64,000 bases of DNA from an endosymbiont of Escarpia spicata. GTDB lineage: Bacteria; Pseudomonadota; Gammaproteobacteria; Chromatiales; Chromatiaceae. The DNA is taken from positions 1 through 64,000 of the forward strand of contig QFXE01000010.1 of NCBI GenBank assembly GCA_003349915.1. The letters run 5' to 3'. Below are positions 12,103-54,995 of this stretch, one piece after another (within the stretch, counting starts at the first letter, position 1; the number at the start of each line of letters is the position of its first letter). The notes beneath the pieces are model-generated. The model saw only the letters and a list, made by a program, of their open reading frames with translations. It made no database searches and was not told the DNA's origin. Made by a program: the position numbers and the translations under genes.

Positions 12103-13477
12103 ATGATCAGGTTGTTCGGCTACTTCATTTCAAAGTCATTTCTTATTTTGGGGGAGATTGAGATCCTTGTCTTTGGAGGATCCGTCTGGCTGGCCCTCTT
12201 TCTCCAACACAATTTTTCCTCCCAAAACATGGGTGGAGTTCCCGAAGGGATGCTGCCATCGGCCAGCGTTTATGCGTTGGTGATGATGAGTTCCATGATC
12301 GCTCTGGGATTATACCAGCGCGGGGTCCTGGAACGTGCGTCAGGGTTCGTGCTGCGGCTACTGATCGTCTTTGGTATCGGCGCGGTCCTGATGAGTCTTA
12401 TCTTCTATATCTGGCCCGAGATTTCGATTCCACGAAAAGAGTTTGGCCTCAGTCTGCTGATCTCCTTGGCGGGCGTGCTGATCTTGAGGTCGATTTTTGT
12501 CCGGGTAACAGGGGCTGATTCCCGAAAGCGGCGTGTATTGGTTCTGGGAACCGGCATCAATGCCGACAGGATAGAAGAACTCTATATTCAAAACCCGACC
12601 CTGGGATTTGTTGTCGTCGGTTTTGTAAACTTGGGGGACAGCATCAGTCTCATTGATGACTATCGGCAGATTCCCAAGGAGCAGGATCTCTACGACATTG
12701 CGATTCGCATGGCGGTGGATGACCGCCGAAAGGGCTTGCCCGTCAATGAGTTGCTCGATTGCAAGATGCGTGGAGTGGAGATACTGGATCTGCTGACCTT
12801 TTTTGAAAAGGAAGATGCAATTATCAAGATCGACCTGTTGCATCCCAGCTGGATCTTCTTCTCAACCGGCTTCTACAGTGGTGCATTATCAATCCATCTG
12901 AAACGTGGCATGGATATAGTCACCAGTCTCATATTGTTGATCTTGTTTTTGCCGGTGATGTTGCTTATCGCAATCACCAGTCTGATCAGTTCAGCCGGAC
13001 GCCATCCTGTATTCTACCATCAGACCCGAGTCGGTAAGGATGGCAAGCTGTTTCGTATCCATAAATTCCGCAGTATGAAGATGAACGCCGAGGCAGATGG
13101 CGCCCCGCTGGGCGAGCAGGAACGATGCCCGCGTGACCCGTTTGGGCGGATTCCTGCGCTTTGCGCGGCTCGATGAACTGCCCCAACTCTATAATGTACT
13201 CAAGGGGGACATGAGCTTGGTCGGACCTCGGCCTGAACGTCCTGAGTTCGTGCAGCGCCTGAGCCAGGAGATTCCATTCTATTCGGAGCGCCACCGGGTA
13301 AAACCGGGGATGACCGGTTGGGCTCAGCTGATGTACGCCTATGCCGCCAATCGGGAGGATACCCGTAAGAAGCTGGAGTATGATCTTTACTATGTAAAAA
13401 ATACCGGTCTCTTTCTGGACCTGATCATCCTGCTCGAAACGGTGGAAGTCGTGCTGTTGGCCAAGGGCGCGAGATGA
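12103..13477 (+). pseudogene. polyprenyl-phosphate sugar transferase (EpsB_2/WbaP-like), split by one frameshift
   Basis: The gene encodes an initiating glycosyl-1-phosphate transferase of about 458 residues, of the kind that loads the first sugar on undecaprenyl phosphate for exopolysaccharide synthesis. It belongs to the type found with exosortase/PEP-CTERM loci. The N-terminal frame (12103-13176) has four to five transmembrane helices, a Rossmann-like region (VLVLGTGINADR) and the start of the catalytic domain (HQTRVGKDGKLFRIHKFRSM). The C-terminal frame (about 13110-13477) supplies ARLDELPQLYNVLKGDMS, VGPRPERPEF and KPGMTGWAQ. The junction fits loss of a TG dinucleotide near 13113 (CTGTGGGCG to CTGGGCG). 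All catalytic motifs are present across the two frames. Confidence 0.85.
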
Positions 13478-25507: not shown

Positions 25508-26281
25508 GTGTAACGTGCGCTGGGCGCTCCATTTGTGAAAGTAACGCAATACAATATCACGCACATGATCCGGGTAGTTCAGCGCTTCCATCTGCTCCAT
25601 TCCCTGCCTGAAAAAACCGGCCGCATCCTCAGGCAGTTTTTCCACGAGATTTCCGTATGCCTCTTCCATCAGTTCGCTGCGGTGGCTGCGAGTGGCGATA
25701 ATCGCACGGTTGAGCAGGAGTACGCGCCAGGGGCGGTTGGGGTTGCTCCTGTCCCGGTCGCTCTGCAACAGCGGTGACACCGCATCCTGAATCTCCCCGG
25801 TGAGAAGATAGAGTTGTTCAAGGTATAAAGGTTCCCCGACCGTGTTGGCCAGAATCGCCAGTGCATTTACCACGGGTTCCAGGGTGCTCAATTCACCGCT
25901 TTGGCGGGCTATCCAAATGGCGAGGGGGAAGGTGAGATTTTCCAGCTCACGGCTGTGTCTCTCCATTTTCAGGTTTTTGGCGCAGATGGAGATATCAATC
26001 AGCAGATTGATGCCGTAGTCCCCAAGTTCATGTATGTCATGATTTGCCATCGCCGACTGATCTTTCCGGCTTTGCTCGGGGATTGGGGCACAATCGATAC
26101 GGCAGTTGTCGAGTGCTCTGAGCAGGTCAAAAAGCTTGTGCATAGCCTGCATGATGAGATCCGGTGGCTGGATCTCTCCAGAGGATGGCTGGCCGATATC
26201 TTCGTAAGCCTCGGTTACGTCATTGGCGAGGTCGTGGAAACTGTCGGCAATTGAGTTGATATCTACAAGCGGGAGTTGCAT
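25505..26281 (-). CDS. helical protein of unknown function
   Basis: This 258-residue soluble, largely helical and acidic protein has no signal peptide, membrane segment or recognisable motif. The start was placed at 26281 (MQLPLVDINS) because a longer frame to 26371 would overlap the divergent gene's 5' end and reads as unstructured. Its TAG stop lies in the terminal bases of a palindromic repeat, so the C-terminus may have been altered by that insertion. Function is unknown. Confidence 0.65.
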   Translation of the reverse strand: MQLPLVDINSIADSFHDLANDVTEAYEDIGQPSSGEIQPPDLIMQAMHKLFDLLRALDNCRIDCAPIPEQSRKDQSAMANHDIHELGDYGINLLIDISICAKNLKMERHSRELENLTFPLAIWIARQSGELSTLEPVVNALAILANTVGEPLYLEQLYLLTGEIQDAVSPLLQSDRDRSNPNRPWRVLLLNRAIIATRSHRSELMEEAYGNLVEKLPEDAAGFFRQGMEQMEALNYPDHVRDIVLRYFHKWSAQRTLH

Positions 26282-26385
26282 GCCCGGATTGTAGCAGGCA
26301 GTGGTGGCTTCGTCTTCTGCCCTTCTGACATCCCGGTGAGACCTGTAGGATGGTCTCAAAATTGATGCCAAACAGGGCCGCAGAT

Positions 26386-26898
26386 ATGCTGAAACAGCAC
26401 AAAAACCTCACATTTTCTGGTTGTTTTCTACTCATTTCACTCTGTTTCTCAACACAGGGGATGGCGGACGACACTATCAGTGTCAAGCTCATCGGCATGG
26501 AGTTGGCGCGTGATATTGCAGATGCGGCAGTTTTGGCCTGCCGCGCCAAGGGATATCAGGTCAGCGTAGTTGTGGTCGATCGCAATGGGGATATCCGTGC
26601 TGCTTTACGGGATGATCTCGCATCCAGGTTTACCCTGCAGATCGCCGAGGAGAAGGCGAATGCCGTGGTGATGTCCGGGCTTAAATCCGGGGAATTCCGG
26701 GAGAACCGGCAGGATATCCGGCCAGAAATGAACCATGTTCGTGGAATATTGATGATGGTGGGAGGTGTCCCAATCAACGCAGCGGGAAGCAGACTTGGCG
26801 CAGTGGGAGTCAGCGGAGCGCCAGGCGGGGAAAAAGATGAAGCCTGCGCAATCAAGGGGCTTGAGTCGGTTGAAGAGCGGCTTGAGTTCGCTGAGTGA
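26386..26898 (+). CDS. exported GlcG/HbpS-family heme-binding-like protein
   Basis: The gene encodes about 170 residues with an N-terminal signal peptide (MLKQHKNLTFSG..., cleavage near GMA) and a GlcG/HbpS (DUF336) domain. Family features are VVVVDRNGDIRAALRDD, ASRFTLQIAEEKANAVV and the glycine-rich end LGAVGVSGAPGGEKDE. Relatives bind heme or cobalamin or stand near redox enzymes, and the ligand here is unknown. The start at 26386 gives a compact signal peptide; an in-frame ATG at 26350 is the alternative. It is divergent from the unknown helical gene. Confidence 0.82.
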   Translation: MLKQHKNLTFSGCFLLISLCFSTQGMADDTISVKLIGMELARDIADAAVLACRAKGYQVSVVVVDRNGDIRAALRDDLASRFTLQIAEEKANAVVMSGLKSGEFRENRQDIRPEMNHVRGILMMVGGVPINAAGSRLGAVGVSGAPGGEKDEACAIKGLESVEERLEFAE

Positions 26899-27541: not shown

Positions 27542-27652
27542 TTACATTTTGTTGGCTGCCCATGCACTGAGCCAGCGCTCAGTCAGGGCCTTCTCATCGG
27601 CGTTGGATGTGCGGTAACCGAAGATAGATAAACCGTCAATAAATCGGCGCAT
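27542..27652 (-). CDS. very short frame, possible gene remnant
   Basis: A 36-residue frame (MRRFIDGLSIFGY...ALTERWLSAWAANKM) has protein-like composition with no low complexity. It may be a tiny gene or the C-terminal remnant of a lost one. No ribosome-binding site is visible. It lies just upstream of, and divergent from, the receiver-domain remnant, so the locus may have been rearranged. Confidence 0.25.
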   Translation of the reverse strand: MRRFIDGLSIFGYRTSNADEKALTERWLSAWAANKM

Positions 27653-27687
27653 TGGTATAGGTGGTGTGCCGGCTAGAGAAGGAAAAA

Positions 27688-27806
27688 ATGAACCAAGATC
27701 AGAAAATCATCCTCGTGGTCGATGACGAGACAAACAGGTAAATGTGATGTTCGAGCGCCACGATGGAGAGATCCATGTTCATATCACAGACCAGAGCGAA
27801 GAATGA
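27688..27806 (+). pseudogene. response-regulator remnant with an internal deletion
   Basis: AAGGA precedes an ATG that encodes MNQDQKIILVVDDETNR and then stops at 27739. This is the beginning of a receiver domain, including the acidic pair that binds Mg2+. Another frame then reads MFERHDGEIHVHITDQSEE and ends at a TGA (27804-27806) overlapping the ATG of the next kinase gene (ATGA). The natural reading is a response-regulator gene that lost its middle. The deletion left the promoter-proximal start and the original coupling to the kinase. Inferred from reading, not from alignment. Confidence 0.6.
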
Positions 27807-30307
27807 ATGCTGGTGACTCAGTGATGACACCCCCTGACAGCAGGCTGAAACTTGATAACAGGCATATCCACCAAGAGGCATTCAATCGCTCGGAAGACGC
27901 TATCCTGCTGCTGCAAGGTGAGATATTTATCGACTGTAATCCCGCGGCAGTCAGGATCCTGCACGCTGCAGACAAATCGGAAGTACTGAACTCACACCCG
28001 GCCGACCTCTCACCGGAGCGACAACCGGACGGCCGCCTCTCCAGCGAAAAAGCGACAGAAATGATCATCACGGCGTTGGAAGCGCACTTCCATCGCTTCG
28101 AATGGTGGCACCGGCGCGTCGATGGAGAGGAATTCCCCTGTGAAGTAACACTTACCACACTCCATGTTGATGCCGAAACTCTCCTCCATGTCACCTGGCG
28201 CGATCTGACCGAAGAGAAAGCTGCCCGACAGCAGCATCAACTCCTGGAGACTGCCTTCAAGCAGTCGCCCGATGGTATTGCCATAGCTGGAATGGACGGG
28301 GTCATCCGTACCACCAACGAAGCCTGGGCAAGAATGCACGGTTATTCGGCAGATGAGCTTCCTGGCAGGCACCTTAGCCTTTTTCACTCACCTGAGCAGA
28401 TGGAACGGGATGTGGAGCCCTTCAATCAGGAGGTCGTTGCCCTGGGGAGTCACAGCGGGGAAGTGGGGCATGTCAGGCAAAATGGCGAGGTCTTCCCCAC
28501 CTGGATGACCGTCACCCTGTTACGGGGCGGTGAAGGAGTACCCATCGGGCTGATCGGATCGGCCCATGACATCTCGGAACGCAAGGCTCAGGAACGCCGG
28601 CTTCAGGAGTCCGAGATTCGCTACCGCACCCTTTTCGAACTGGCGCCAAACGCCATAACAACGATTGATTTGGAGGATGGTGGCTTTGTCCAGTTCAATC
28701 GTTTTGCCCATGAAAATCTCGGTTATACCCGGCAGGAGTTCGAAAGATTGAGGATCACGGATATCGATATCATCGAATCTCCCGAAGAGGTGCAACAACA
28801 TCTACAGAAGATCAAACAAGAGGGCCATGACGTTTTCGAAAGCCAACACCGCACAAAGGATGGTCGGATACGAAATGTGGAGGTAATCTGCCAGCTGATC
28901 GAGATCGATGGCAGGCAGTTCAATCAATCGGTCTGGCGTGATATTACTGAGCAGAAAAGATCGCACAAGGTGCTCAGGCAGGAGATGCAGCGCCGAACCA
29001 GTCTCTCCAGGTTGCTGGAGATATCCCTGGAGAGTCATCGGCAGCCTGAATTGTTGCAGCGATTTCTTGTAGAACTGCTGGACCAGCCAAGGATGAAGAG
29101 CCGTGATCAGGGCGCCATCTTCCTGGCCAACAAAGCAGGTGATCAACTGGTCCTCGCGGTAGAGCATAATCTGGAGAAATATTTTATCAGCCACTGCTCC
29201 AGCGTATCCTTCGGCCACTGCCTGTGCGGCCGTGCGGCGTTGCAGGGCAAACCCATTTACTCCCTTTGTAGTGACGAACCAAGGCATGAGATCCAATTCC
29301 CTGGGATGGAGTCCCACGGACACTATGTTATTCCTGTGGTCAGTGACGGACGGACACAGGGGGTGATCAACCTCTATCTCGATGCCGGGACTGAATATGA
29401 CCAGATGGATGTTGACTATCTCAATTCAGCGGCGGATATCCTCGCTGGCGCACTCAACCGCTTGCGTATCGAAGAGAAACTGCAACAACACAGCCTGCTT
29501 CTGGAACAGACAGTGAGTGAACGTACGCGGGAACTGGCCAGGGCCGCCGCAAAGGCTGAGGAAGCCAACTTGGCGAAGTCCCGCTTTCTGGCCAATATGT
29601 CCCATGAGCTGCGTACACCGATGCACGCCATTCTCAGTTTTTCCCGCATGGGCATGCAGCGTCTGAATCAGGCGACTCTGGAAAAACTGGGGGCCTATTT
29701 CACCTATATTAACGACAGTGGTGACCGGTTGTTGTTCCTGCTCAACGACTTGCTGGATCTGGCAAAGCTGGAGTCTGACCGGGTGTCGATGGTGTACACA
29801 GCCGCTGATCTTCAGGGAGTCGTAAACCAGTGCGCAACCGAGCAGATGACCAGATTGGAGGAACAGGAACTGACACTGAAAATCGTCCCGCCAACCTGTG
29901 AAACCAGGGGCTGTTTCGATTCGCAACGCATTGGCCAGGTCATCGGCAACCTGTTGGGTAATGCGCTTAAATTCACGCCGGCAGGCCGGCAGATCTTCAT
30001 TACCTTCAGTAACGGCACTCTCCCTTGCGGACGCAGTAAAGAGGATCAAACCCAGTGCCCCTCACTGCGTTTGAGTCTGCGTGATGAAGGTATAGGTATT
30101 CCGGAGGATGAGTTGGAGGCTGTATTCGACAAGTTTATTCAGAGCAGCAAGACACGCAGTGAAGGCGGGGGGACAGGCCTTGGACTGGCGATCAGTAAAG
30201 AGATCATAGAGGCCCATGGCGGTAGGATCTGGGCGCAAAATTATTCACAGGGAGGTGCGGAGTTTGTCTTCGAAATACCGATTAATAGAGAGATTGGCAG
30301 CTCTTGA
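27803..30307 (+). CDS. cytoplasmic PAS-PAS-PAS-GAF sensor histidine kinase
   Basis: This 834-residue kinase has no membrane segment. Three PAS domains (about 10-140, 140-265, 265-390) are followed by a GAF domain (about 415-560; contains several Cys and His), a coiled coil and a HisKA domain with phospho-acceptor His in FLANMSHELRTPMH. The ATPase domain has N box NLLGNALKFTP, DEGIGIPEDE and GGGTGLGLAISKEI. It would sense a cytoplasmic ligand or redox state. The ATG at 27803 was chosen because it overlaps the preceding remnant's stop; a longer frame starts at 27722. It is the first of four related kinases and has no receiver or output domain of its own. Confidence 0.88.
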   Translation: MNAGDSVMTPPDSRLKLDNRHIHQEAFNRSEDAILLLQGEIFIDCNPAAVRILHAADKSEVLNSHPADLSPERQPDGRLSSEKATEMIITALEAHFHRFEWWHRRVDGEEFPCEVTLTTLHVDAETLLHVTWRDLTEEKAARQQHQLLETAFKQSPDGIAIAGMDGVIRTTNEAWARMHGYSADELPGRHLSLFHSPEQMERDVEPFNQEVVALGSHSGEVGHVRQNGEVFPTWMTVTLLRGGEGVPIGLIGSAHDISERKAQERRLQESEIRYRTLFELAPNAITTIDLEDGGFVQFNRFAHENLGYTRQEFERLRITDIDIIESPEEVQQHLQKIKQEGHDVFESQHRTKDGRIRNVEVICQLIEIDGRQFNQSVWRDITEQKRSHKVLRQEMQRRTSLSRLLEISLESHRQPELLQRFLVELLDQPRMKSRDQGAIFLANKAGDQLVLAVEHNLEKYFISHCSSVSFGHCLCGRAALQGKPIYSLCSDEPRHEIQFPGMESHGHYVIPVVSDGRTQGVINLYLDAGTEYDQMDVDYLNSAADILAGALNRLRIEEKLQQHSLLLEQTVSERTRELARAAAKAEEANLAKSRFLANMSHELRTPMHAILSFSRMGMQRLNQATLEKLGAYFTYINDSGDRLLFLLNDLLDLAKLESDRVSMVYTAADLQGVVNQCATEQMTRLEEQELTLKIVPPTCETRGCFDSQRIGQVIGNLLGNALKFTPAGRQIFITFSNGTLPCGRSKEDQTQCPSLRLSLRDEGIGIPEDELEAVFDKFIQSSKTRSEGGGTGLGLAISKEIIEAHGGRIWAQNYSQGGAEFVFEIPINREIGSS

Positions 30308-30354
30308 ATTCGTCTGCCAAGGTGGTGATTGCACTGCAAAAGAGAGGTAAAAAT

Positions 30355-31337
30355 ATGAATGCCAGAGCCCTGACCATCAACAAATCAGCCCTGTGGTTTC
30401 TTCTGCTTGCAGGCCTGATGTTTCTATCGCCTTTCCGAGCTACGGCAGCCACCTGCCTGTGGATCTCCTCTTATGCGCCTGGGTATGAATGGAACGATGG
30501 CATAGGAAAAGGCATCCACTCTGTACTGGACGGCCGATGTGAAATCAGTGAGTTCCATATGGATACCAAGCGTAATAAAAGCCACGATTTTGCTCGCAAG
30601 CAGGCGCTCAAGGCGAAAACCCTGATATCGCAGCTCCAACCTGATGTTGTTATCGCCTCCGATGATAACGCTTCGAAGTTCCTGGTAGCCCCTCATTTCA
30701 AGAACCTGGAGATACCCTTTGTCGTCTGCGGCGTCAACTGGTCAGTCAAAGAATATGGTTACCCCTACTCCAATGTCACGGGTGTGGTTGAGATATTCCC
30801 GGTTAATCCCTTAGTGCGCAGTGTGAAGGAGATACTGTCGATCGGTGCCGGACACGGCCTGTTGCTTGTACCGGATACGCGTACAGCGCATAAAAATTTC
30901 AAACATTTAAAACGACATTTCAGTCATAATGATTTTCAGCTCACGCCCTCTTTGCCAACACCTTTGCTGAGTGGAAACAGGGTTTTCAGGAAGGCCAGAG
31001 TTATGATTTCGTCGTGCTGCTCAATAACTCAGGCATAGAAGGTTGGAATGACGCTGCAGCCAGGGATCATGTGATGACGCATGGCAAGCAGTTGAGTATT
31101 GGCTTTAATCGATGGATGCTGCCTTACAGCATGGTGGTGTTTACCAAAATTCCCGAAGAGCAGGGAGAGTGGGCGGGCAACATGGCCCTGGCGATTCTGG
31201 AGGGGAGTGAACCGTCACAGATTCCAATGACCTCGAATCAGCGCTGGAATGAATACATCAATACAGGACTTCTGAAAAGATCCGGTATCCGTCTGCCCAG
31301 GGAGCTGCAGGAACGGGCCATCAGGGAGAAGCCCTGA
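30355..31337 (+). pseudogene. periplasmic ABC-type substrate-binding protein, split by one frameshift
   Basis: The gene would encode about 327 residues of the PF04392-like (TrpX/YtfQ-like) solute-binding fold. It has a signal peptide (MNARALTINKSALWFLLL...) and opens with CLWISSYAPGYEWNDGI. The N-terminal frame ends at 31038. The true frame continues from about 30950 (FANTFAEWKQGFQEG, LLNNSGIEGWND, MLPYSMVVFTKIPEEQGEWAG) to 31337. Adding one base near 30951 (ACGCC to ACGGCC) restores it. GAGAGG precedes the ATG. No permease or ATPase gene is nearby, so the intact protein was probably a ligand-binding partner for the kinase starting 23 bases downstream. Confidence 0.8.
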
Positions 31338-31360
31338 GCGGACGCTATTGCGGAATCCAT

Positions 31361-33271
31361 ATGCCCCATACTTCTCAACTGCCGGTTGTAACGATATGGC
31401 TCATTGGCGCCATATCCACAGCCTTGCTTCTATTTCAGGCCCGTAGCTACTTGCTGGATCTGGAAGAGGAGCGCTTTTACCAGGAGAGTGCAACGTTGGT
31501 GCAACGGCTTTCCGGCAATCTCTTCAGCGTGGAGCGTGGAGCGTGGAGTCCTGGGGCTGGCCAGCTTTCTGCAGATCGCGCCTAAGATTTATCCTGATGA
31601 TTTTCGGCTTCTCTCCCAGCCTCATATCGACGCCCCCTTTATCACAACAGCAGCGTATCTTCCTGTAGTTCCAGCAGATGAACGGGAATCGTTCGAGCAG
31701 CTGCAGGAAGAGTGGCATGGTTACATTGGTTTCAGAATTCGCGATTATCAACGGGGGCAGCCGCTAACCAGAGGGAAACAGGATCACCACTTCCCCATCC
31801 TGATGTTCGAGCCCCGAACCGTTGTTAGCCTGGGTATGCTGGGGCGTGATCTCTCCACCTGCAAGGACATTGAAACGGTTCTGCAGAGGGCGATCGATAC
31901 GGCAGCCACCACGATTGCTTTCGGTGACAAAGAGAGTTGTATCAAAAATCTGGTGGCCCTCAAGCCTGTCTATCATGGACGACAACCACCGAATCAGGTC
32001 TCTGAACGCAAACAAGGAATCAAGGGGTTCGTAAAACTGGATCTCGACAGCAGACGGCTACTGCAGCTGGAATCCGGGAAACACCTGCAGGTAAAGCTGG
32101 AGGCGGAATTTGCAGAGAGCCCCCTGGTAGAATGGAATTCCGACGATACATCCTCTCAATCGGCGATCTTTAAGGTTTTTAGCGACGTACGGCTTCTGTC
32201 CGGTGTGTTCAATGATCAGCTGAGACTCCGCATAACCAAAACCATTGAGTGGTCCGGAATGCAGTACATGCTGCTCTTCCTGAGTGCAGCCATCGGCCTG
32301 ATGTTTACCCTGTTTATACATCGTTTTTCGTTGCCCATCGTGAACGTCTGCGAATCTCCGAGCTGCATCGGAAAGAGATCCAGCAGGAGGTCGATCATAA
32401 GACCCGGGCGCTGGAGGGAGCAAACAAGGAACTCGAAATGTTGTATCGGAATGCCATTGAACATCAGGAGGCCCTTGAACATACAATGCGCAGGGCAGAG
32501 GAGGCCAACAGTGCCAAATCCGAGTTTCTGGCAAATATGTCCCACGAACTGCGTACCCCTATGCATGCGATTCTCAGCTTCTCGGCCTTCGGTCAGAAGA
32601 AGTGGGAAACAGCAGCGCGAAAAAAACTGTCTGGTTATTTCTCCCATATTCATGCGAGTGGCGAGCGTCTGTTGATATTGCTAAATGATCTGCTGGATCT
32701 CTCGAAACTTGAGGCGGGGCGCATGATATTGGAGTACCGGCAAAATGACTTGAGGACCGTGGCAGAAAATTGTGTGCATGAGCTGGAAGGATACATAACA
32801 AACTGCGGAGTGCAGTGTGAACTCCTGCCTGCAAAAATGGATACCCAGGGTGAGTTCGATGCCATGCGTATCAGTCAGGTGATAACCAACCTGCTTTCCA
32901 ATGCCATCAAGTTCACGCATGCAGGAGGAGTGGTCCAGGTCTCTGTGAGTCAGGACCGTTTAGAGATTGATGACCATGAGACAACAGCGCTGCGGCTGAG
33001 TGTTCTGGATCAGGGAGTGGGCATCCCGGAAGCTGAGCTGAATACCATCTTCGATAAATTCATTCAGAGCAGCAAGACTCGCACCGGAGCTGGCGGCACC
33101 GGTTTGGGGCTGGCGATCAGCAAAGAGATCATTGAGGCGCACGCAGGGAAAATCTGGGCCGAAAATAATCCGCAAGAAGGGGCGCTGTTCCACTTTCTGA
33201 TCCCGGTTACTTATAGCGAAGCATTAGTAGGTACGACTCACTCACAGGAAAAGAAACGAGGAACAACATGA
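31361..33271 (+). pseudogene. CHASE-type membrane sensor histidine kinase with two compensating frameshifts
   Basis: The intact protein would be about 634 residues: a transmembrane helix (near 10-28), a periplasmic CHASE-like domain, a second helix (SAAIGLMFTLFI), a coiled coil, HisKA (FLANMSHELRTPMH) and the ATPase domain (NLLSNAIKFTH, DQGVGIPEAE, GAGGTGLGLAISKEI). The first frame (31361-31585) is left at a triple AGCGTGG repeat; two copies would keep the frame. The middle is read in another frame (to about 32325). The original frame resumes after a T-run at 32324-32328 that appears to lack one T. The catalytic half (from about 32390) is intact. Its stop overlaps the next start (ATGA). Confidence 0.82.
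31526..31546. repeat. triple heptanucleotide repeat (AGCGTGG)3 inside the kinase gene
   Basis: There are three perfect tandem copies of AGCGTGG. Two copies would give the continuous reading SVERGVLGLASFLQ; three shift the frame and truncate the protein at 31585. A 7-base unit changes frame with every copy gained or lost, so it is a plausible slippage site. Confidence 0.85.
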
Positions 33272-34089
33272 AGATAGATACTGGCCACCTTTCAATAATC
33301 CTCTTCCTGATCCTCTGCAGCGCTGAATCCTGCCTTGCAATGGAACAGGTGAGTATCTGCGGCACCGGGGATTCGCAACTGTTATTACGAGTGCTTGGAA
33401 AAAAGTTTGAAGCAGACCATCCAGATATTGCTATTAACGTTCCAGACAGCGTTGGTAGTGGTGGCGGTATCAGAGCTGTGGCAAAAGGAAGATGTGATCT
33501 TGCCCGTGTTGCCCGTCCCATACTGGATAGAGAAAAACACTTTGAGCTGACCTACTGGCTGTTTGCCAGATCCCCTATTGCCTTTGTTCTTCATCCCACC
33601 ATGGAGCGACCGCAGAATCTTACCGGAAAGCAGATCATCGATATTTACAGCGGCAATCTGGAGAGATGGGAACAGGCAGGTGGCGATAAAGGCAAAATAT
33701 ATGTTATCAACAGAGAGGAGGGAGACTCATCACGCATTATCCTGGAAAAGAATCTTCCCGGATTTTCCGGCATCGAGACATTTTCCGGTAGAGTATTCTT
33801 TACGACTCATGAAGCGCTGGAGGGAATAAAAAGCCACCGGAAAACCATCGCATATATACCTTTATCCCTGGCACTGACAAGTAACCTGCCACCATTGTCA
33901 GTGGATGGTATTGCCCCGACACCTGCTAATGTACGATCAGGTGCTTATAAGCTAATTACCCCCTTTGGTCTTGCCTGGAAGGGAGAGCTTCAGGGCATTG
34001 TTAAAACATTTGTGGATTACCTGAAAACGCCTGCAGTACAAGCAATCATGCTTGAATATGGGGTTTTTGCGGTGACTCAAAGTGAATAA
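33268..34089 (+). CDS. PstS-like periplasmic solute-binding protein
   Basis: This 273-residue secreted protein has a signal peptide (cleavage near CLA, about residue 24) and a PBP-like (PstS/phosphonate type) fold. Ligand-loop features include ICGTGDSQ, DSVGSGGGIRAVA and NREEGDSSR, which in PstS contact the oxyanion. No pst permease or ATPase genes accompany it. It is coupled to the preceding kinase by an ATGA overlap and lies six bases before the next kinase, so it more likely presents a ligand to a sensor kinase than serves transport. The ligand could be phosphate or another oxyanion. Confidence 0.83.
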   Translation: MKIDTGHLSIILFLILCSAESCLAMEQVSICGTGDSQLLLRVLGKKFEADHPDIAINVPDSVGSGGGIRAVAKGRCDLARVARPILDREKHFELTYWLFARSPIAFVLHPTMERPQNLTGKQIIDIYSGNLERWEQAGGDKGKIYVINREEGDSSRIILEKNLPGFSGIETFSGRVFFTTHEALEGIKSHRKTIAYIPLSLALTSNLPPLSVDGIAPTPANVRSGAYKLITPFGLAWKGELQGIVKTFVDYLKTPAVQAIMLEYGVFAVTQSE

Positions 34090-34095
34090 AATCCT

Positions 34096-36402
34096 ATGCG
34101 TCTCTTGAAGTCTCTCCAGGGAAAGATATTAACCTTCACACTTCTTCCTGTCATGTTGACTATGGCCATAGCCGGCTATTCCGGGTACCGGCTTTTTCTC
34201 GATCACGTTGAAACCCAACAGCAGCGGATGATGAAATCCTTTGCTAAAGAACAGGCAGCCCATCTTGATGATCGTTTTGAAATGCGGGCACATGAATTTT
34301 CTAAAATAGCCAACGGCAGAGCATTTGAAAGCTTTGTAAAAACCTTTCAGGAAAAATCATTAGTTCGTCAATTGACTCAACAGCAGGAAATATTTTCTAC
34401 TATTCTTCTTGCTGACGAAAATGGCTACGAGCTTCTTAAAGTAAACAAAGGCCAGGTTACTGTTAGCGAAGAACAAGTGGATCTTGGCTCTTTGACTCAG
34501 AAGGCCCGGAAAAATGAGGAGAGAGTGGTCTTTTCAGTGACTGCCAAACAAGCAGATCTTGGGAAACCTGCCCTTGAGCTGGCAATCTTTCGAAAAGGCT
34601 ATTTTGAAGAAGAGGTTGATGTACTTCTCTATGGGGTTGTCCCTCTTGCGCAAATCATCGGGGAACTGGTGGAAGAAACAATTGGGAAAACAGGCTTCCT
34701 CTCTATAAGTAATCAAGATGCAAGGATTCTTGTGTCTCCGCTTGATAGCGTGATAGGGCAGAAAATCATAGCTGTGGATAAAGGCGGGAGAAAGGTTATC
34801 GATGCCATTCAATCGATACAGCCCTCTTATACACGAGCTGGATTATTTGATCTGGATGCCATGGTCGCTACATCTCCAATGAAAAAGACCAATTTGTCCG
34901 TAGTCGTTACGTTTCCCTACGAAGAGTTTGTCTCTGCGCCGAACGACTTGAGAAATAAGGCAATCTTAATCTCCTGTTTTGCTATCACCCTATCCGTATT
35001 TATTGCATTTATTCTCTCCCGCGCCATTACTGCGCCGCTTAAAAAACTTGAAGCCGCAACGGCAAAAGTAGCCGCGGGTGATTTTGTTGGCGGCCGTGTT
35101 TCAATCGATACAGGTGATGAACTTGAGGGGTTGGCACGTGCCTTTAATAGCATGACCCGTGATCTGGGCCAGTATATTGCACAGGAAAAAGAGTATGCAG
35201 CTGATCATGCGGCACGGGCCACCACAGAAAAAAAGATGGAGGAGATCAAGGAAAGCGAGAAAAAATACAGAACCTTGACCAATAACATCCCCGGATTGGT
35301 GTACAGGACAATATCTGACTGGACTGCTGAATTGATTTCAGGAATTGAGGGAATATCAGGCTATGAACAGCAGGCGTTTGATTCCGGAAAATTAAATTGG
35401 CTCATGCTTGTCCATCCTGATGACAAAGAGAGGGTTCTTGCTGAAAGTGAACAATTTCCAACCGGACCCATGGCCGTTTGCCAGGAGTATCGAATCATCA
35501 AGAAAAACGGAGATGTTTGCTGGGTGGCTGACTACAAAACTTCGATTTTCAATCAACAGGGAAAGTGGTTGGGTATTGATGGCGTTGTCCTGGATATAAC
35601 AAACCGAAAAACAATGGAGCAAGTGCTTACTGAAGCCAAAAATACGGCGGAGCAAGCCAATCAGGCCAAGTCAGAGTTTCTGGCGAATATGTCCCACGAA
35701 CTGCGCACTCCGATGCACGCCATTCTCAGCTTCTCATCATTCGGACTGGAAAACGGAGAAACCGCTGAACGGCAAAAATTGATCGAGTACTTTACCCATA
35801 TTCAGACAAGTGGCCACCGGCTACTGACACTACTTAACGACCTGTTGGATCTGTCCAAGCTGGAAGCTGGGCGCATGGCATTGGAGTACCAGCCCAACGA
35901 TTTGAAGTGTGTGGCGGAAAGCGCCATTCATGAACTGCGGGGACACATTACAGATCAAGGTGTATTGTGTGAACTCCTGCCCCCGGAAACAGATACCATA
36001 GGCGAGTTCGACGCCCTGCGTATCGGACAGGTGATAACCAACCTGCTCTCCAACGCCATCAAGTTCACAGCTACAGGGGGACATATCCAGATCTCTATCA
36101 GTCAGGATATAATGGATATTGACGGACACGAGATACCTGGGTTGCAGCTGAGCGTTCTTGATCAGGGCGTTGGGATCCCGGAAACAGAACTGGATACTAT
36201 TTTCGATAAATTCATCCAGAGCAGCAAGACCCGCACCGGGGCCGGAGGCACCGGCTTGGGTCTGGCGATCAGCAAAGAGATTATCGAGGTGCATGCAGGG
36301 CGGATCTGGGCAGAAAATAATTTGGAACAGGGGGCGCAGTTCCACTTTCTGATCCCAGTCACTCCCCTCATTCAGCCAGCAGCGGAAAATAGCGCACAGT
36401 GA
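34096..36402 (+). CDS. membrane sensor histidine kinase: Cache, HAMP, PAS
   Basis: This 768-residue kinase has a first transmembrane helix (about 8-28), a large periplasmic double-Cache-like domain (about 30-290), a second helix (about 293-315) and HAMP (about 315-370; SRAITAPLKKLEAATAKVAAG). A PAS/PAC domain (about 390-510) and coiled coil precede HisKA (FLANMSHELRTPMH) and the ATPase (NLLSNAIKFTATGGH, DQGVGIPETE, GAGGTGLGLAISKEI). The catalytic core is very similar to those of the two kinases before it. It follows the PstS-like gene by six bases, so that protein is the likely periplasmic partner. The frame is intact. Confidence 0.9.
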   Translation: MRLLKSLQGKILTFTLLPVMLTMAIAGYSGYRLFLDHVETQQQRMMKSFAKEQAAHLDDRFEMRAHEFSKIANGRAFESFVKTFQEKSLVRQLTQQQEIFSTILLADENGYELLKVNKGQVTVSEEQVDLGSLTQKARKNEERVVFSVTAKQADLGKPALELAIFRKGYFEEEVDVLLYGVVPLAQIIGELVEETIGKTGFLSISNQDARILVSPLDSVIGQKIIAVDKGGRKVIDAIQSIQPSYTRAGLFDLDAMVATSPMKKTNLSVVVTFPYEEFVSAPNDLRNKAILISCFAITLSVFIAFILSRAITAPLKKLEAATAKVAAGDFVGGRVSIDTGDELEGLARAFNSMTRDLGQYIAQEKEYAADHAARATTEKKMEEIKESEKKYRTLTNNIPGLVYRTISDWTAELISGIEGISGYEQQAFDSGKLNWLMLVHPDDKERVLAESEQFPTGPMAVCQEYRIIKKNGDVCWVADYKTSIFNQQGKWLGIDGVVLDITNRKTMEQVLTEAKNTAEQANQAKSEFLANMSHELRTPMHAILSFSSFGLENGETAERQKLIEYFTHIQTSGHRLLTLLNDLLDLSKLEAGRMALEYQPNDLKCVAESAIHELRGHITDQGVLCELLPPETDTIGEFDALRIGQVITNLLSNAIKFTATGGHIQISISQDIMDIDGHEIPGLQLSVLDQGVGIPETELDTIFDKFIQSSKTRTGAGGTGLGLAISKEIIEVHAGRIWAENNLEQGAQFHFLIPVTPLIQPAAENSAQ

Positions 36403-37907
36403 GCATGCGACTATTCCAACCCCACTCTGAACTGGGCTCCCTGAGCAAGGAGCAGCAGCGACAGGTTGATCATGCGGGCAGTATTGACCTTGGACGGCGC
36501 TCAGGTGTCATCGCGTTGGCCTATCCAGTGATTCTCGGCATTCTTGTACTGGGTAACCCAGAACTGTACGTCAAAATGAATCTTTTAAGCCTGGTGGTTT
36601 TCAGCCTGCTTCTGGTCAGCTTGGTCAGGTTTATCTATGGTCGCCGGCTCGCTCAGGCCACTGATGAAAGCATTGATGGGCTAAGGCTTCGATACGTTTT
36701 ATGGACCCTGGTAACGATACTGCTGCTTGGTATGATGCTCTGCATTATTGTGATCGTTACCGAACTCTCGCTGGGAGGTATGGCTACGATTGTGATCGGC
36801 TTGGGAATATGTGCCGGTGCCCTGGCTACAATGAATCTCTATCGATTGCCATGGGCCTTTTTTCTCTTGCTGTTTTGGTCTCCAACCGTGCTGGCCTGCT
36901 TATATCTGGCCATACAGGGAAACAGTTCTGTGCTTCTGTTCGGCACCCTCATCGCTGTCTATGCCCTATTTCTCTATCGACTGGGCAATCAGTTGGCAAA
37001 AGAGTATTGGCGCAGTCAGTGCATGGTGGTCGAACTTGAACATAAAACCGGACAATTGGTCACGGCCAATGAACATTTGATTTCTGCGCAACAGGAATTG
37101 ATGGAGCACCAGAACAATCTGCAAGACCTGGTAGATGAACAGACAAAAGATCTGGTATCGGCCAAGGAGCAGGCTGAAGAGGCCAATCAGGCAAAATCCC
37201 GGTTCCTTGCCAATATGTCTCACGAACTGCGTACTCCCATGCACGCTATTTTGAGTTTTTCATCCTTTGGCCTGAAAAAGGGTGAAACCGCAGAGCGAAA
37301 AAAACTGATCGACTACTTCTCCCATGTTCATGCAAGTGGTGAGCGCCTGCTGATACTGCTCAATGGTATTCTCGATTTGGCTAAATTTGAATCAGGCCGT
37401 ATGGAGATGACGTTTAAACACAACGATCTCTTGGAGGCCGCCGAGGAGGCGGTTACTGAACTGGGGTGTTACATTCAGGATCAAGGTCTCCACTGTAAAC
37501 TTACATCCCAGGAAAAAAGTGTATACGGTGACTTCGACGCCTTGCGGATTGGCCAGGTGATTCGTAATTTACTCTCCAATGCCGTCAAGTTCACTCCGTC
37601 CGGGGGCCATATTCATCTGACTGTCCAGACAGGCAATATGACGCATGACAAGCAGACAATCCCTGCTCTACATTTCAAGATTCAGGACCAAGGCATAGGT
37701 ATTCCAAAGGTCGAACTGAAGAAGGTCTTCAAAAAATTCATCCAGAGCAGCAAGATTGAGGCAGGAACCGTAGGTACAGGTCTGGGACTTGCCATTTGTA
37801 AAGAGATTATAGATGTCCACAGAGGCCATATCTGGGCAGAGCAGGCTCCAGGTAAAGGGGCCATTTTCCAGTTTCTGATACCCGTGTCCGACACTCGGAA
37901 AAAATAG
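36399..37907 (+). CDS. multi-helix membrane sensor histidine kinase
   Basis: This 502-residue kinase has an N-terminal block of about six transmembrane helices (about 30-215) with almost no periplasmic domain. A coiled coil (about 220-265), HisKA (FLANMSHELRTPMH) and the ATPase (NLLSNAVKFTPSGGH, DQGIGIPKVE, GTGLGLAICKEI) follow. The membrane block resembles MASE-type sensors in general form, but no family was recognised. The GTG start overlaps the previous stop (GTGA); an ATG two codons later at 36405 is an alternative. The last kinase of the series, it is separated from the receiver gene by a repeat element. Confidence 0.87.
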   Translation: MSMRLFQPHSELGSLSKEQQRQVDHAGSIDLGRRSGVIALAYPVILGILVLGNPELYVKMNLLSLVVFSLLLVSLVRFIYGRRLAQATDESIDGLRLRYVLWTLVTILLLGMMLCIIVIVTELSLGGMATIVIGLGICAGALATMNLYRLPWAFFLLLFWSPTVLACLYLAIQGNSSVLLFGTLIAVYALFLYRLGNQLAKEYWRSQCMVVELEHKTGQLVTANEHLISAQQELMEHQNNLQDLVDEQTKDLVSAKEQAEEANQAKSRFLANMSHELRTPMHAILSFSSFGLKKGETAERKKLIDYFSHVHASGERLLILLNGILDLAKFESGRMEMTFKHNDLLEAAEEAVTELGCYIQDQGLHCKLTSQEKSVYGDFDALRIGQVIRNLLSNAVKFTPSGGHIHLTVQTGNMTHDKQTIPALHFKIQDQGIGIPKVELKKVFKKFIQSSKIEAGTVGTGLGLAICKEIIDVHRGHIWAEQAPGKGAIFQFLIPVSDTRKK

Positions 37908-37970
37908 GGGAACTGATTAAAGAAAAACCGTGAGATGCCGATAACCCTTGCATTCAGCAATTAAAATAAA

Positions 37971-38114
37971 GGAACCCCTGATTAATTGAGTCACTGTCAT
38001 TTCGACCTTGGAAATATATAAAACCACATTTATATCAATAGGTTATGAGGGTAAGTAAACGGATGTAGCGTTTACGAACCTATGGATGGAGATGACAATT
38101 AATTCAGAGGCTCC
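37971..38114. repeat. MITE-like element with imperfect terminal inverted repeats
   Basis: The left end GGAACCCCTGATTAATTG (37971) and the right end, read inverted as GGAGCCTCTGAATTAATTG (ending 38114), pair imperfectly. The first 37 bases (to 38007) recur inverted at 52553-52589 with one mismatch. The 144-base element lies between the last kinase and the receiver gene and has no coding capacity. A small non-autonomous transposon is the likeliest identity; the parent element was not seen. Confidence 0.6.
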
Positions 38115-38135
38115 AAAAATTATGGGAATATAAGA

Positions 38136-39293
38136 ATGGAAGAGCAGATAAAGACTCAACCCCTGATTCTTGGTGTTGACGATGAACCGCTTAACCAGAT
38201 CATCCTCGAAGAACTTCTGGCCAATGAATTTGAACTGATATCCGCTGAAAATGGCCAGGCTTGCATCGAAACCGTGGCGACCCGCAGGCCCGACCTGATC
38301 ATCATGGATGTCAATATGCCGGTACTGAACGGATTGGAAACCTGCCGCCGACTCCGTCAAGACCCTGACTATGGTGAACTCCCGATCATTTTTGTATCGG
38401 CTCTGGCATCATCCGATGAACGCCTGGCAGGGTACGAAGCAGGTGCTGATGACTACATCACAAAGCCATTTGATGAAAGTGAGCTTAAAGCCAAAATCGG
38501 CATCGCACTAAAAAACCACGAACAGAAGAATAAACTGCGCAACTCATCTCAGGATGCGATGAAGATGGCGATGGCCGCCATGACCAGTGCCGCAGAATTT
38601 GGGGTGATTTTAAGGTTTTTTCAAAACAGTTTTTCCAGTAAGGATTTCACTGAACTTGGGCAGCAAGTCTTTTCTGTTCTGGATGAATATGGGTTATCAG
38701 GAAGTTTGATACTGAAACAGCAGCAGGAGACTCTGTTCATCACGAAAGACGGGCTGGATCGCCCTTTGGAGCAATCAGTGCTGGAAGGCCTGGTCGGCGG
38801 GCAGCGCATCTTCGAGTTTGGCAGCCGAGCCGTCTTTAATGGTGAGAGGGCATCACTGCTGATTCGCAGCATGCCTCACGATGATGGAGAAAAAGTGGGG
38901 CGTCTGAAGGACACTCTGGCGGTATTGATTGAGGGTGTGGATGCAAGAATCAAGGGCATAGAGACCGAGCAGAAACTCTACAGACGCCAACAGGATCTTT
39001 CCGAGGTCATTGAAATGGCCAGGCAGAGCCTTGCCGGAATCGACAGTCAACATAAGCAGCAACGCATAGAGAATGCCCAGATACTTTCCGACATGGGAAC
39101 TGGTATAGAGAAATCGTTCATGCATCTGGGTCTCTCCGGAGAGCAGGAGGAGGCTCTTATGGAGATGATCACTGAAACAGAGGCAAAGACCGATGCTCTC
39201 TACGAAGCCGGACAGGCGTTGGATGAACAGTTCAGAAATATCATGCTCCGCCTCAAATCCTCCCTGAAGGAAAATAGTGAAACTGATAGATAA
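38136..39293 (+). CDS. response regulator with an unclassified coiled-coil C-terminus
   Basis: This 385-residue protein has an N-terminal receiver domain (about 8-125) with acidic pair VDDE, phospho-acceptor Asp in IIMDVNMP and conserved Lys in ITKPFDE. The following 255 residues match no output domain I recognise. There is a compact segment (about 140-265; MAMAAMTSAAEFGVILRFF...) and then long helices rich in Glu and Gln (about 270-375). There is no helix-turn-helix, GGDEF, EAL or HD motif. It may act by protein-protein contact as the common phospho-acceptor of the four upstream kinases. That partnership is inferred from position. Confidence 0.85.
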   Translation: MEEQIKTQPLILGVDDEPLNQIILEELLANEFELISAENGQACIETVATRRPDLIIMDVNMPVLNGLETCRRLRQDPDYGELPIIFVSALASSDERLAGYEAGADDYITKPFDESELKAKIGIALKNHEQKNKLRNSSQDAMKMAMAAMTSAAEFGVILRFFQNSFSSKDFTELGQQVFSVLDEYGLSGSLILKQQQETLFITKDGLDRPLEQSVLEGLVGGQRIFEFGSRAVFNGERASLLIRSMPHDDGEKVGRLKDTLAVLIEGVDARIKGIETEQKLYRRQQDLSEVIEMARQSLAGIDSQHKQQRIENAQILSDMGTGIEKSFMHLGLSGEQEEALMEMITETEAKTDALYEAGQALDEQFRNIMLRLKSSLKENSETDR

Positions 39294-39299
39294 CTCAAG

Positions 39300-39397
39300 C
39301 AATCATGGTGCGCGCGGCGCACCCTACCAGATGGATTGAATGCCAAAACTTGAGTAGATAAAACGTTCCACAGAATGTAGGGTGCGCTGTGCGCACC
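39300..39397. repeat. inverted pair of family-1 REP-like palindromes
   Basis: Copies at 39300-39327 (CAATCATGGTGCGCGC...) and 39377-39397 (GTAGGGTGCGCTGTGCGCACC) face each other across about 49 bases. They lie between the convergent ends of the receiver gene and the HD-GYP gene. The position and symmetry are those of a mosaic REP element and could shield both transcript 3' ends. Confidence 0.85.
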
Positions 39398-39418
39398 AGA
39401 TACTGGACACGCCTGCTT

Positions 39419-40480
39419 TTATGGATCCGCGTGCTGTTCACGGATCTCGATCAGCTTATCGAGAATGGTGTTGAATGCGGTGACCAGGGTCGGATCAAAG
39501 TGGATACCGGACTGCTCATTGATCAGTTTCATCGCGTCCTCAATTGGCCAGGCGGACTTGTAGGGACGAGACATGGTCAGAGCATCGAAAACGTCGGCAA
39601 TAGCAACGATACGGCCCTTGATCGGAATATGATGGCCTTTCAGTCCTTTCGGATACCCGCTGCCATCCCATTTTTCATGGTGCATCAGCGCGATAGTACG
39701 GGCACATTCGATGAGCGGGTTGGAACCACCCCGGAGAATTTTGGCGCCGATAGTGGTATGCGTCTTCATTATCTCCCACTCATCAGCATCCAGCTTTCCC
39801 GGCTTCAGCAGAATCTTGTCTGGAATACCAATCTTGCCGATATCATGCATAGGCGCTGCATAGAGTATTCGCTCCGCCTCATCCGTGCTTAGCCCGATCT
39901 GTATGGCAAGAAGCCTGGAGTAGTGTCCAACACGAACAGTGTGTTCTCCCGTTTCGGTATCACGGAACTCTGCGGCATATCCCAGGCGTTTGACGATCTC
40001 CGCCTGGGTTTCCAATAGCTCTCTGGTTTTTGCTCTGACCGCATGTTCCAGGGTCGAACTGTAGTGAGTGAGCAGTTTGTGGGCGAGAGAGACTTCAAGC
40101 AGATTGTAGGCGCGGCTCAACACCTCTTCGCTGTCGAAAGGTTTGACCAGGAAATCCTTGGCGCCCCCCCGCAAGGCCCGCAAACGCGTCTCCCGATCAC
40201 CTATCGCAGTGAGCACCAGCACCGGCGGTGGGGGTTCGTACTTCTGCTCGCTGAAATGCGACATTACCTCGAATCCGTCCATACCCGGCATGTTGAGATC
40301 CAACAGTACCAGATCGAAGCGTTGCTGCTTGAAAAGCGCTACGGCCTCTTTTGGATCTGTAGTGGATTGGACGTTTGGATAGCCGGAGTTCTCAAATATC
40401 TCCTCCACCACGAGGAGATTCAACGGTTCGTCATCAACTACCAGAATCAGCCCGGATTTGATTTCCGACTCGGTGATCAT
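39419..40480 (-). CDS. receiver-HD-GYP cyclic-di-GMP phosphodiesterase
   Basis: This 353-residue RpfG-like protein has a receiver domain (about 10-130) with VDDEPLN, phospho-acceptor Asp in VLLDLNMPG and VKPFD. A helical linker leads to an HD-GYP domain (about 165-345) with metal-binding MHDIGKIGIPD, HHEKWDGSGYPKGL and ADVFDALTM. It hydrolyses c-di-GMP when phosphorylated. It converges on the sensor cluster, and its receiver resembles that of the gene at 38136, so it is a likely output of the same phosphorelay. The frame is intact. No clear ribosome-binding site was seen. Confidence 0.92.
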   Translation of the reverse strand: MITESEIKSGLILVVDDEPLNLLVVEEIFENSGYPNVQSTTDPKEAVALFKQQRFDLVLLDLNMPGMDGFEVMSHFSEQKYEPPPPVLVLTAIGDRETRLRALRGGAKDFLVKPFDSEEVLSRAYNLLEVSLAHKLLTHYSSTLEHAVRAKTRELLETQAEIVKRLGYAAEFRDTETGEHTVRVGHYSRLLAIQIGLSTDEAERILYAAPMHDIGKIGIPDKILLKPGKLDADEWEIMKTHTTIGAKILRGGSNPLIECARTIALMHHEKWDGSGYPKGLKGHHIPIKGRIVAIADVFDALTMSRPYKSAWPIEDAMKLINEQSGIHFDPTLVTAFNTILDKLIEIREQHADP

Positions 40481-53853: not shown

Positions 53854-54995
53854 TCATTTTGAGCGTTCTTTGTTGAATCGGGATGAAAGTTTTTTTCCCA
53901 GGATGATTCCTGGCTTCTCTATGTATCGATAGGTTAGCCAGGAAAATATCATCGTCAAAATCAGGGTGCTGACGAACAAAAGTAAAAAGTAGTTTCCCCG
54001 CGCCAGATCAAAGTAGCTCAGGAGAACACTTGAGACCAGCGTGATGACGAGGGTGTGGAGCAGATAGATACTGTAGGAGACCTTGCCCATCCAAAGAGAT
54101 ATCCGGTTGAGAAAAAGCGGGGCAACCAAACGGTGACTCAACGATTCCTTCGGCTCCAGCATGAGTGCAAAAAATACCAGCCACACGGCGATGGGAAAAA
54201 GCCTGAAGTCGTGTCCGGAGGTGAAATAGATCATGAAAACGGCCGCCACCGCCGTTGGAAACAGAAAATCGGGTTTGATCACACTGTTGTGTAGGTGCCT
54301 GTAGATGAAGTAGCTACAGGCGCCGAAGAAAAAAACTCGATATGAAAAGGTAGAAAAGCGCCATATTCCACACGGGGCAATATTTTTCGGGCCATGATGT
54401 AGGCCGCCAGACAGGCAACAATTACCCCCAGCCGGGCAAACCGCCCACGAGTTGCCGCCAGGCTGAACAGCAGTGGTGCGATTAGATAGAATTGCCACTC
54501 GAGCGAGATGCTCCAAGCGGGTCCAAGAAATGCTCCGGGAACAAAGGGCACCCACTTTTCGGGAACCATACCGTGCAGCATAGTGAGATGAGTTAGGATA
54601 TTGAATCCAAGCCAATCATTGTGGGTATCAAGTTTATAGGTAAGATTTTCGATGTATTTTTCTGTGTGATAGGCACCGCTCTGGGTTACGTTTTGCATCG
54701 CTAACGGGGCTAATACCATTGCGATCAGAAAGAGTACGAACAGCAAGGGATAGACACGGAAAAATCTCTGCGTGATGTAAGCGGAATAATTTCCGCGAAC
54801 TTGGTCGATGAGCAGAAAGATGACGAAGCCGCTGATGATAATGAAGATATCTACCGCGTATCTACCGGAAACCAGCAGCAGTGGAATACCTTCCATCATC
54901 TCGGGGGTGTAGCCGGCAGTACCCAATACATGGCCGACCAGCACTCAGAGTGCCAGAAAGGCCCTCAAGCCTTCGATTTCCCTGATTCTCCTCAT
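53854..54995 (-). pseudogene. acyltransferase 3 (OafA-like) with a nonsense codon and a frameshift
   Basis: An intact gene would encode about 380 residues of the ten-helix acyltransferase that O-acylates surface sugars. From ATG 54995 the frame reads MRRIREIEGLRAFLAL, then TGA (54947-54945) where the family has Trp, then VLVGHVLG. The family catalytic His and SGFVIF motif follow. The second lesion is a run of seven A on the plus strand (54330-54336). One more base would join IEFF to FFGACSYFIYRHL and carry the frame to KERSK at 53854. Both lesions must be corrected to make a full protein. It follows the yciK-like gene by nine bases. Confidence 0.85.

Follow-up and report, generated by a model that had tools for sequence, protein, structure and literature searches.

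A candidate exchangeable input slot in a sensor kinase locus of tubeworm endosymbionts

Introduction

TorT/TorS and LuxP/LuxQ are sensor kinases coupled to a binding protein. In the polymorphic sensor loci agr and comQXPA, a variable sensor half meets a conserved kinase half, and a partner gene co-varies. GacS, RetS and LadS are sensors thought to converge on one output, and their genes are scattered and not exchangeable. Exchange of sensor domains among kinases is known over long evolutionary times. Here we analyze a kinase locus of the Escarpia spicata endosymbiont (assembly GCA_003349915.1, genome G000; 4,062,513 bases in 23 contigs). The locus lies in a window of 64,000 nucleotides, the whole stretch analyzed (QFXE01000010.1, bases 1-64000 of contig C22). 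It comprises kinase genes HK1 to HK4, solute-binding protein genes SBP1 and SBP2, and the genes of two receivers, RR1 and a receiver-HD-GYP protein (REC-HD-GYP). We call the stretch between HK1 and HK4 the slot, and one or more ligand-handling proteins plus a membrane kinase a cassette.

As in the binding-protein-coupled kinases, a binding-protein gene here adjoins the gene of a membrane kinase, and no transporter gene was seen beside it. Unlike in those systems, the pair is a cassette: it varies among sister genomes, while the kinase core, HK4 and RR1 behind it stay constant. Contact between the paired proteins is predicted by analogy. A conserved kinase half, a variable sensor half and recombination between them were all found at this locus. 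In contrast to agr and comQXPA, where one sensor with a self-made peptide comes in alleles, the alternatives here are sensor domains unrelated to each other, accompanied by binding proteins. The genes that co-vary with the sensors are SBP1, SBP2, or a TonB receptor together with YfiR; among open reading frames (ORFs) of at least 100 amino acids, no linked gene for a self-made peptide signal was seen. The kinase genes are clustered and their cores closely similar, unlike those of GacS, RetS and LadS. The REC-HD-GYP gene has the domain order and catalytic motifs of the RpfG type, whereas the cluster has no RpfC-type hybrid kinase and its HD-GYP gene is linked to the kinases by synteny only.

A further relative is YfiR-YfiN. 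In two sister genomes, a YfiR-like protein precedes a CHASE8-HAMP protein in which a kinase replaces GGDEF, and YfiR units of this kind have been described (PMC3375315). In contrast to YfiR-YfiN, the unit shares its slot with unrelated binding-protein cassettes, and a TonB receptor stands where YfiB would be. Gene pairs of a binding protein and a kinase are described as a general kind in another paper (PMC11113362). A preliminary description, made from the letters of the window, had known of no described system with this layout. The layout itself varies among the genomes, and both kinds of pair are already described. Among open-licence papers, we found nothing on point about this layout or about kinase loci of tubeworm symbionts. 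We find the exchangeability more interesting than the layout: the exchange can be followed from one sister species to another at a constant site, with the reading frame kept and the junctions mapped.

Results and discussion

A constant frame encloses a variable slot

We compared six genomes of the genus, a group of vestimentiferan tubeworm endosymbionts: G000, which carries the window, and its sisters G001 to G005. G002 is the symbiont of Escarpia laminata and G004 that of Lamellibrachia anaximandri. The RR1 gene was present in all six genomes; the order around it was constant, and the contents between HK1 and HK4 differed. HK1 (27803-30307, forward strand; three PAS domains, GAF, HisKA and HATPase; start set from the sister genomes) forms the 5′ side of the frame. 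HK4 (36399-37907, forward; a multi-helix N-terminus without a Pfam hit, HisKA and HATPase) and RR1 (38136-39293, forward; receiver, GAF-like domain and coiled coil) form the 3′ side. HK4, RR1 and the REC-HD-GYP gene (39419-40480, reverse strand) were adjacent in 6/6 genomes, though HK4 lacks its core in G001 and RR1 is split in G005. The preliminary description had proposed a search for the same gene order in other genomes and had counted its absence from every relative as a refutation. That condition does not apply to the frame: the order held for the HK4, RR1 and HD-GYP end and gave way in the middle, where the cassettes differ.

A further receiver gene, REC-HATPase_c_2, precedes HK1 in four sisters (G001, G002, G004 and G005), full length and without stops. 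In G000, two scraps of it are left on the forward strand (27652-27729 and 27726-27800). They match residues 1-26 and 239-263 of the G002 protein, and the rest is deleted. The 81 bases 5′ of HK1 in the same ORF are part of these scraps. The earlier reading of the window had overlooked this third receiver gene.

In G000, the slot holds two cassettes, all on the forward strand. The first pairs SBP1 (30355-31337, PF04392 type) with HK2 (31361-33271; CHASE sensor, HisKA and HATPase); it is broken in the window, and both genes are open in G002 and G003. The second pairs SBP2 (33268-34089, a PstS-like PBP_like_2 protein) with HK3 (34096-36402; dCache, HAMP, PAS, HisKA and HATPase), both intact. In both pairs, the binding-protein gene adjoins that of a kinase with a periplasmic sensor domain. 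The slot of G002 and G003 has SBP1-HK2, and that of G005 has SBP2-HK3. In G001 and G004, we found instead a TonB receptor, a YfiR-like DUF4154 protein and a CHASE8-HAMP kinase. This YfiR unit is not part of the window locus; it is known at the slot in G001 and, broken, in G004. The G001 YfiR-like protein matched PF13689 with an expect value (E) of 7.8e-41 and scored 116 bits with the NCBIfam model, below the cut-off of 125. The G001 slot kinase carries CHASE8 (E 1.2e-11), with HisKA and HATPase in place of GGDEF. Whatever its sensor, the kinase directly before HK4 had the same type of 3′ end in 6/6 genomes.

The kinase cores are closely related and mosaic

Searching eight genomes with the HK4 core (E up to 1e-40), we delimited a clade of kinases 50-62% identical to that core. 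The HK4 orthologues reached 86-95%, and the next listed kinases 38-40%. A stretch of 15 residues at the histidine, SHELRTPMHAILSFS, was identical in 8/8 clade kinases aligned and in 0/4 other kinases aligned. G000 has six clade members: HK1 to HK4, one on contig C2 beside an RR1-like gene, and one on contig C16 beside a REC-HATPase_c_2 gene. For all six, the gene run includes a receiver of the RR1 or REC-HATPase_c_2 type, or what is left of one. The main locus could thus be read as two older pairs of kinase and receiver, REC-HATPase_c_2 with HK1 and HK4 with RR1, on either side of a slot.

Following informative sites along the core alignment, with 5000 permutations per parent set, we find that HK2 of both G002 and G003 is a chimera. 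The G002 core is of the window-HK2 type (114:3 sites) and then of the HK3 type (69:14), with a switch near alignment column 394-417. In G003, the counts are 122:15 and then 4:48, with a switch near column 552-615, and the second parent is the slot kinase of G004. For each of five parent pairs, 0/5000 permutations reached the observed value. Both chimeras are open reading frames. As the two breakpoints differ, these were probably separate recombination events.

G004 gave a second line of evidence. In blocks of 500 bases, its outer flanks show 95-99% identity to G000 and 91-95% to G001, and they are closest to G000 and G005. Within L014 7001-11500, which covers the 3′ end of HK1 and the slot, G004 is instead 94-99% identical to G001. 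In this stretch, G000 reaches 85-90%, G005 reaches 89-93%, or both have no counterpart. Gene trees of the flanks and of RR1 group G000, G004 and G005. The trees of HK1 (G004 with G001, support 0.98), HK4 (G000 with G003, 0.999) and HD-GYP (G003 with G004, 0.999) are at odds with the flanks. As far as sequence comparison can tell, a cassette has been exchanged between lineages, as seen in G004 and G001.

A second slot lies on another contig

Downstream of a hybrid kinase gene on contig C9 of G000 lies an RR1 paralogue whose tail is 34% identical to that of RR1. We compared this locus in G000, G001, G002, G004 and G005. Between ftsX and the paralogue, the genes in G000 and G005 are those of an EB_dh protein and of a HAMP hybrid kinase. 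The same interval of G002 encodes a PBP_like_2 protein with 44% identity to SBP2, a hybrid kinase of dCache-HAMP-PAS build, a protein that looks isochorismatase-like by eye, and a second hybrid kinase, this one with PAS. In G001 and G004, the gene sets are different again. Beneath unrelated sensors, the C9 kinases of G000 and G002 have cores with 85% identity. That the PBP_like_2/dCache pair is found with two distinct architectures of kinase speaks for it as a unit. In the distant bacterium L058, a gene of the RR1 family is preceded by those of an NMT1 binding protein and of a hybrid kinase that carries a phosphonate-binding domain.

The input units are widespread parts

We searched 146 genomes of the family for relatives of the input units. 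SBP1 relatives occurred in 24 genomes. Among 23 loci viewed, the neighbours of 13 were tested for domains: 11 were CHASE-PAS-GGDEF-EAL proteins, one was a CHASE-PAS hybrid kinase (in this genome) and one a chemoreceptor, so that CHASE was present in 12/13. Three of the remaining ten loci had no called ORF. SBP2-type relatives, found with the G002 protein as query, occurred in 15 genomes; eight loci were inspected and five partners tested. All five carry GGDEF, three also EAL, and none a dCache domain at E 0.001. YfiR relatives were found in 46 genomes, with twelve loci inspected and five partners tested. Four partners were CHASE8-HAMP hybrid kinases and one a CHASE8-HAMP-PAS-GGDEF protein (CHASE8 5/5). 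By their domain content, the input units are widespread parts, often wired to enzymes of cyclic di-GMP (c-di-GMP), and are here wired to one kinase core. In another genus (G113, L097 4725-6581), two SBP1-type domains are fused in a 618-amino-acid protein directly before a 996-amino-acid hybrid kinase.

We did not accept SBP2 as simply a phosphate sensor. It is PstS-like and scored 94.6 bits with NCBIfam TIGR02136, below the cut-off of 206.6. Two loops that are Ser/Thr-rich in a solved phosphate-binding protein, and that we take to hold the phosphate there, read differently in SBP2. Sequence searches of PDB with SBP1 and with the RR1 tail gave no match.

One receiver has a GAF-like tail and the other HD-GYP

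The preliminary description had one receiver ending in a helical region and the other in HD-GYP, neither with a DNA-binding domain. The HD-GYP end was right, with the motifs HDIGK and HHEKWDGSGYP. The RR1 tail is more than helical. AlphaFold gave residues 155-278 a GAF-like α/β fold, with a predicted local distance difference test (pLDDT) value of 90 and a predicted template modelling score (pTM) of 0.85. Foldseek matched this domain to LuxR-type ligand-binding domains and to GAF domains (best E 5.4e-4, query-normalised template modelling score about 0.6-0.7). The model and the matches together rule out a purely helical tail. A long coiled coil follows the domain at lower confidence (pTM 0.43 for the whole model), and the C-terminus has no Pfam match. 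No DNA-binding or enzyme domain was found in RR1. Going by the model, the tail may bind either a small ligand or another protein. This domain is common to the RR1 family, has no name in Pfam and is a clear target for study.

HD-GYP homologues (E up to 1e-105) occurred in 28 of the 146 family genomes. In five contexts inspected in other genera, a match to the RR1 tail stood beside the gene in none, and the kinases there were at most 35% identical to HK4. The gene is tied to the cluster by synteny inside the genus only. A role of REC-HD-GYP in the system is plausible, and through it the system may act on c-di-GMP, as the preliminary description proposed.

A proposed phosphorelay with an exchangeable input slot

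We interpret the locus as a phosphorelay with an exchangeable input slot, and from the sequences we put the probability of this at about 0.55. One cassette, or two as in this genome, sits between the constant HK1 and the constant HK4 and RR1. It would join a periplasmic or outer-membrane ligand handler to a kinase with a matching sensor: SBP1 with CHASE, SBP2 with dCache, or the TonB receptor and YfiR with CHASE8. By comparison of the sequences, homologous recombination in the kinase core at the 3′ side and in HK1 at the 5′ side replaces, deletes or fuses cassettes with the frame kept. Judging by known systems, a ligand-loaded binding protein, or the release of YfiR, would alter the activity of the kinase. 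All these kinases have an identical helix behind the phosphorylated histidine; we infer from this that they share receivers, and all would phosphorylate chiefly RR1. RR1 would then relay the signal with its GAF-like and coiled-coil part, by way of a small ligand or a partner protein. REC-HD-GYP, if its synteny is a guide, would lower c-di-GMP as a second output.

A wider view is that this is a natural sensor-cartridge system. At least two chromosomal slots that end in a GAF-like-tailed receiver would accept cassettes, which would recombine by way of the conserved kinase core, and lineages would re-tune their sensing with the output kept. Inputs whose relatives drive c-di-GMP enzymes would have been rewired into one phosphorelay. 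We hold this wider view tentatively and rate its chances as somewhat below even. Any adaptive reason for the exchange would be conjectural; the locus may bear on how endosymbionts adjust sensing between seawater and host. It makes testable how new inputs join an old output without cross-talk.

Erosion, separate systems and artefact as alternatives

Several observations weigh against an exchangeable slot, and we give them with the explanations that they favour. The strongest rival is an eroding tandem array of paralogous kinases. An ancestor would have carried several neighbouring cassettes, and its endosymbiont lineages would have lost different ones by unequal recombination and mutation, with no adaptive swapping. 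In at least four of the six genomes (G000, G001, G004 and G005), some part of the locus is broken, and decay may outweigh exchange. The G004 YfiR gene has a frame change and its slot kinase an internal stop. In G001, HK4 (L016 13114-13629) kept its membrane part and lost most of the kinase core in frame. An insertion with a DDE_5 transposase gene interrupts RR1 of G005 (L018 12428-13928). The G003 contig stops inside HK1, and G002 is the only genome whose locus looks whole. The G002 and G003 chimeras are also the expected remains of a deletion between neighbouring HK2 and HK3 cores. In the mosaic test, four other trios showed no comparably clear break, with 5000, 1150, 93 and 1918 of 5000 permutations reaching the observed value; the trio at 93, that of window HK3, hints at a further recombined patch.

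The window itself also speaks for erosion. SBP1 has one frame change and HK2 has two, one of them in a 7-base tandem repeat, which makes three within about 3 kb. The repeat might allow phase variation; with three separate breaks, slippage in it alone could not reopen the cassette. As a control, we compared the window with the colinear stretch of G005, taking G005 ORFs of at least 120 amino acids (n = 51). A match was found for 45 of them, four being split in the window by a single-base frame change, and two further ORFs matched only in part. SBP1 and HK2 are outside this count because they are absent from G005. From the rest of the window, about 0.2 frame changes would be expected in the SBP1-HK2 stretch (P about 0.001 for three, a rough Poisson estimate). 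The SBP1 and HK2 pieces, compared with G002 and G003, have ratios of nonsynonymous to synonymous substitution rates (dN/dS) of 0.06-0.28. Such low values suggest that the SBP1-CHASE cassette of this genome decayed only recently. The four genes found split in the control (window 8345-11894, 12103-13474, 25508-26549 and 53857-54995) may owe their single-base frame changes to decay or to assembly error.

Loss alone cannot explain the exchange between G004 and G001, and the same pattern recurs at the second locus. Against G005, G004 is 89-93% identical over the exchanged stretch. This limits the contrast with G001 and, together with an SBP2/dCache pairing known from two loci, slightly lowers the odds of an exchangeable slot and of the wider view. 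The intact genes of the window are under purifying selection (dN/dS 0.14-0.26), which again counts against an eroding array. They encode the kinases HK1, HK3 and HK4, the binding protein SBP2 and the receivers RR1 and REC-HD-GYP. All three kinases have kept their histidine, N, G1 and G2 boxes, and RR1 keeps the acidic pair, the acceptor aspartate and the lysine. We consider an eroding array unlikely, though it explains part of the data and has the best claim among the alternatives.

The same inventory bears on the preliminary description, which had read the locus as a multi-input cluster of four sibling kinases with nearly identical cores and different sensors, alternating with two orphan binding proteins. 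The multi-input character was borne out by the domain content of the kinases and binding proteins, and the domains are as stated. Since SBP1 and HK2 carry frame changes, not all four kinases and not both binding proteins can be functional in G000. The binding proteins are orphans in that no permease or ATPase gene was seen beside them in the ORF list from 24 to 44 kb, judged by eye and without a domain scan beyond the locus.

A second rival is that these are neighbouring but separate two-component systems. Each kinase would have its own distant receiver, and RR1 and HD-GYP would not be common outputs. The coupling by stop/start overlaps that had been proposed exists at HK2/SBP2 and HK3/HK4 (4 bases each) and does not extend to the receivers: RR1 is set off from HK4 by 228 bases, and the HD-GYP gene runs towards RR1 from the opposite strand. 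The separation of HD-GYP homologues from RR1-type genes in 5/5 contexts of other genera fits separate systems too. So does one clade kinase of G005 (L206), with no RR1-type gene seen by eye within 15 kb. In G005, RR1 is interrupted and the kinases are still open, so RR1 may not be their sole target. According to PMC11113362, adjacent genes for a binding protein and a kinase are not always linked in function. As the five SBP2-type partners tested elsewhere had no dCache domain, the pairing of SBP2 with dCache rests on two loci. Separate receivers do not account for the 15 residues at the phosphorylated histidine that all aligned clade kinases share, for the further HK4-like/RR1-like pair on C2, or for the synteny in 6/6 genomes. 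We regard this explanation as improbable. At its own site, L206 (5378-7810) shows a phosphonate-type binding protein adjoining the clade kinase, possibly a free-standing cassette.

An artefact of sequencing error or of strain mixing in bins is very improbable: at least two of the six genomes (G002 and G004) are metagenome bins and the four split ORFs of the control would fit it, but the same cassettes stand at the same place in independent assemblies (TonB-YfiR in G001 and G004, SBP1-HK2 in G002 and G003), G005 is a single contig, the chimeric HK2 genes are open, and the three changes exceed expectation, one being of a 7-base unit.

Other features near the locus

By eye, the GAF domain of HK1 (27803-30307) has a run rich in cysteine, HC...GHCLCGR, that may be a metal or redox site. 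The lpxC gene of G002 (L015 1727-2961) appears as two fragments with 281 bases between them. Between the convergent RR1 and HD-GYP genes (39294-39418), we noticed by eye two inverted G+C-rich repeat copies of the GTAGGGTGCGC type.

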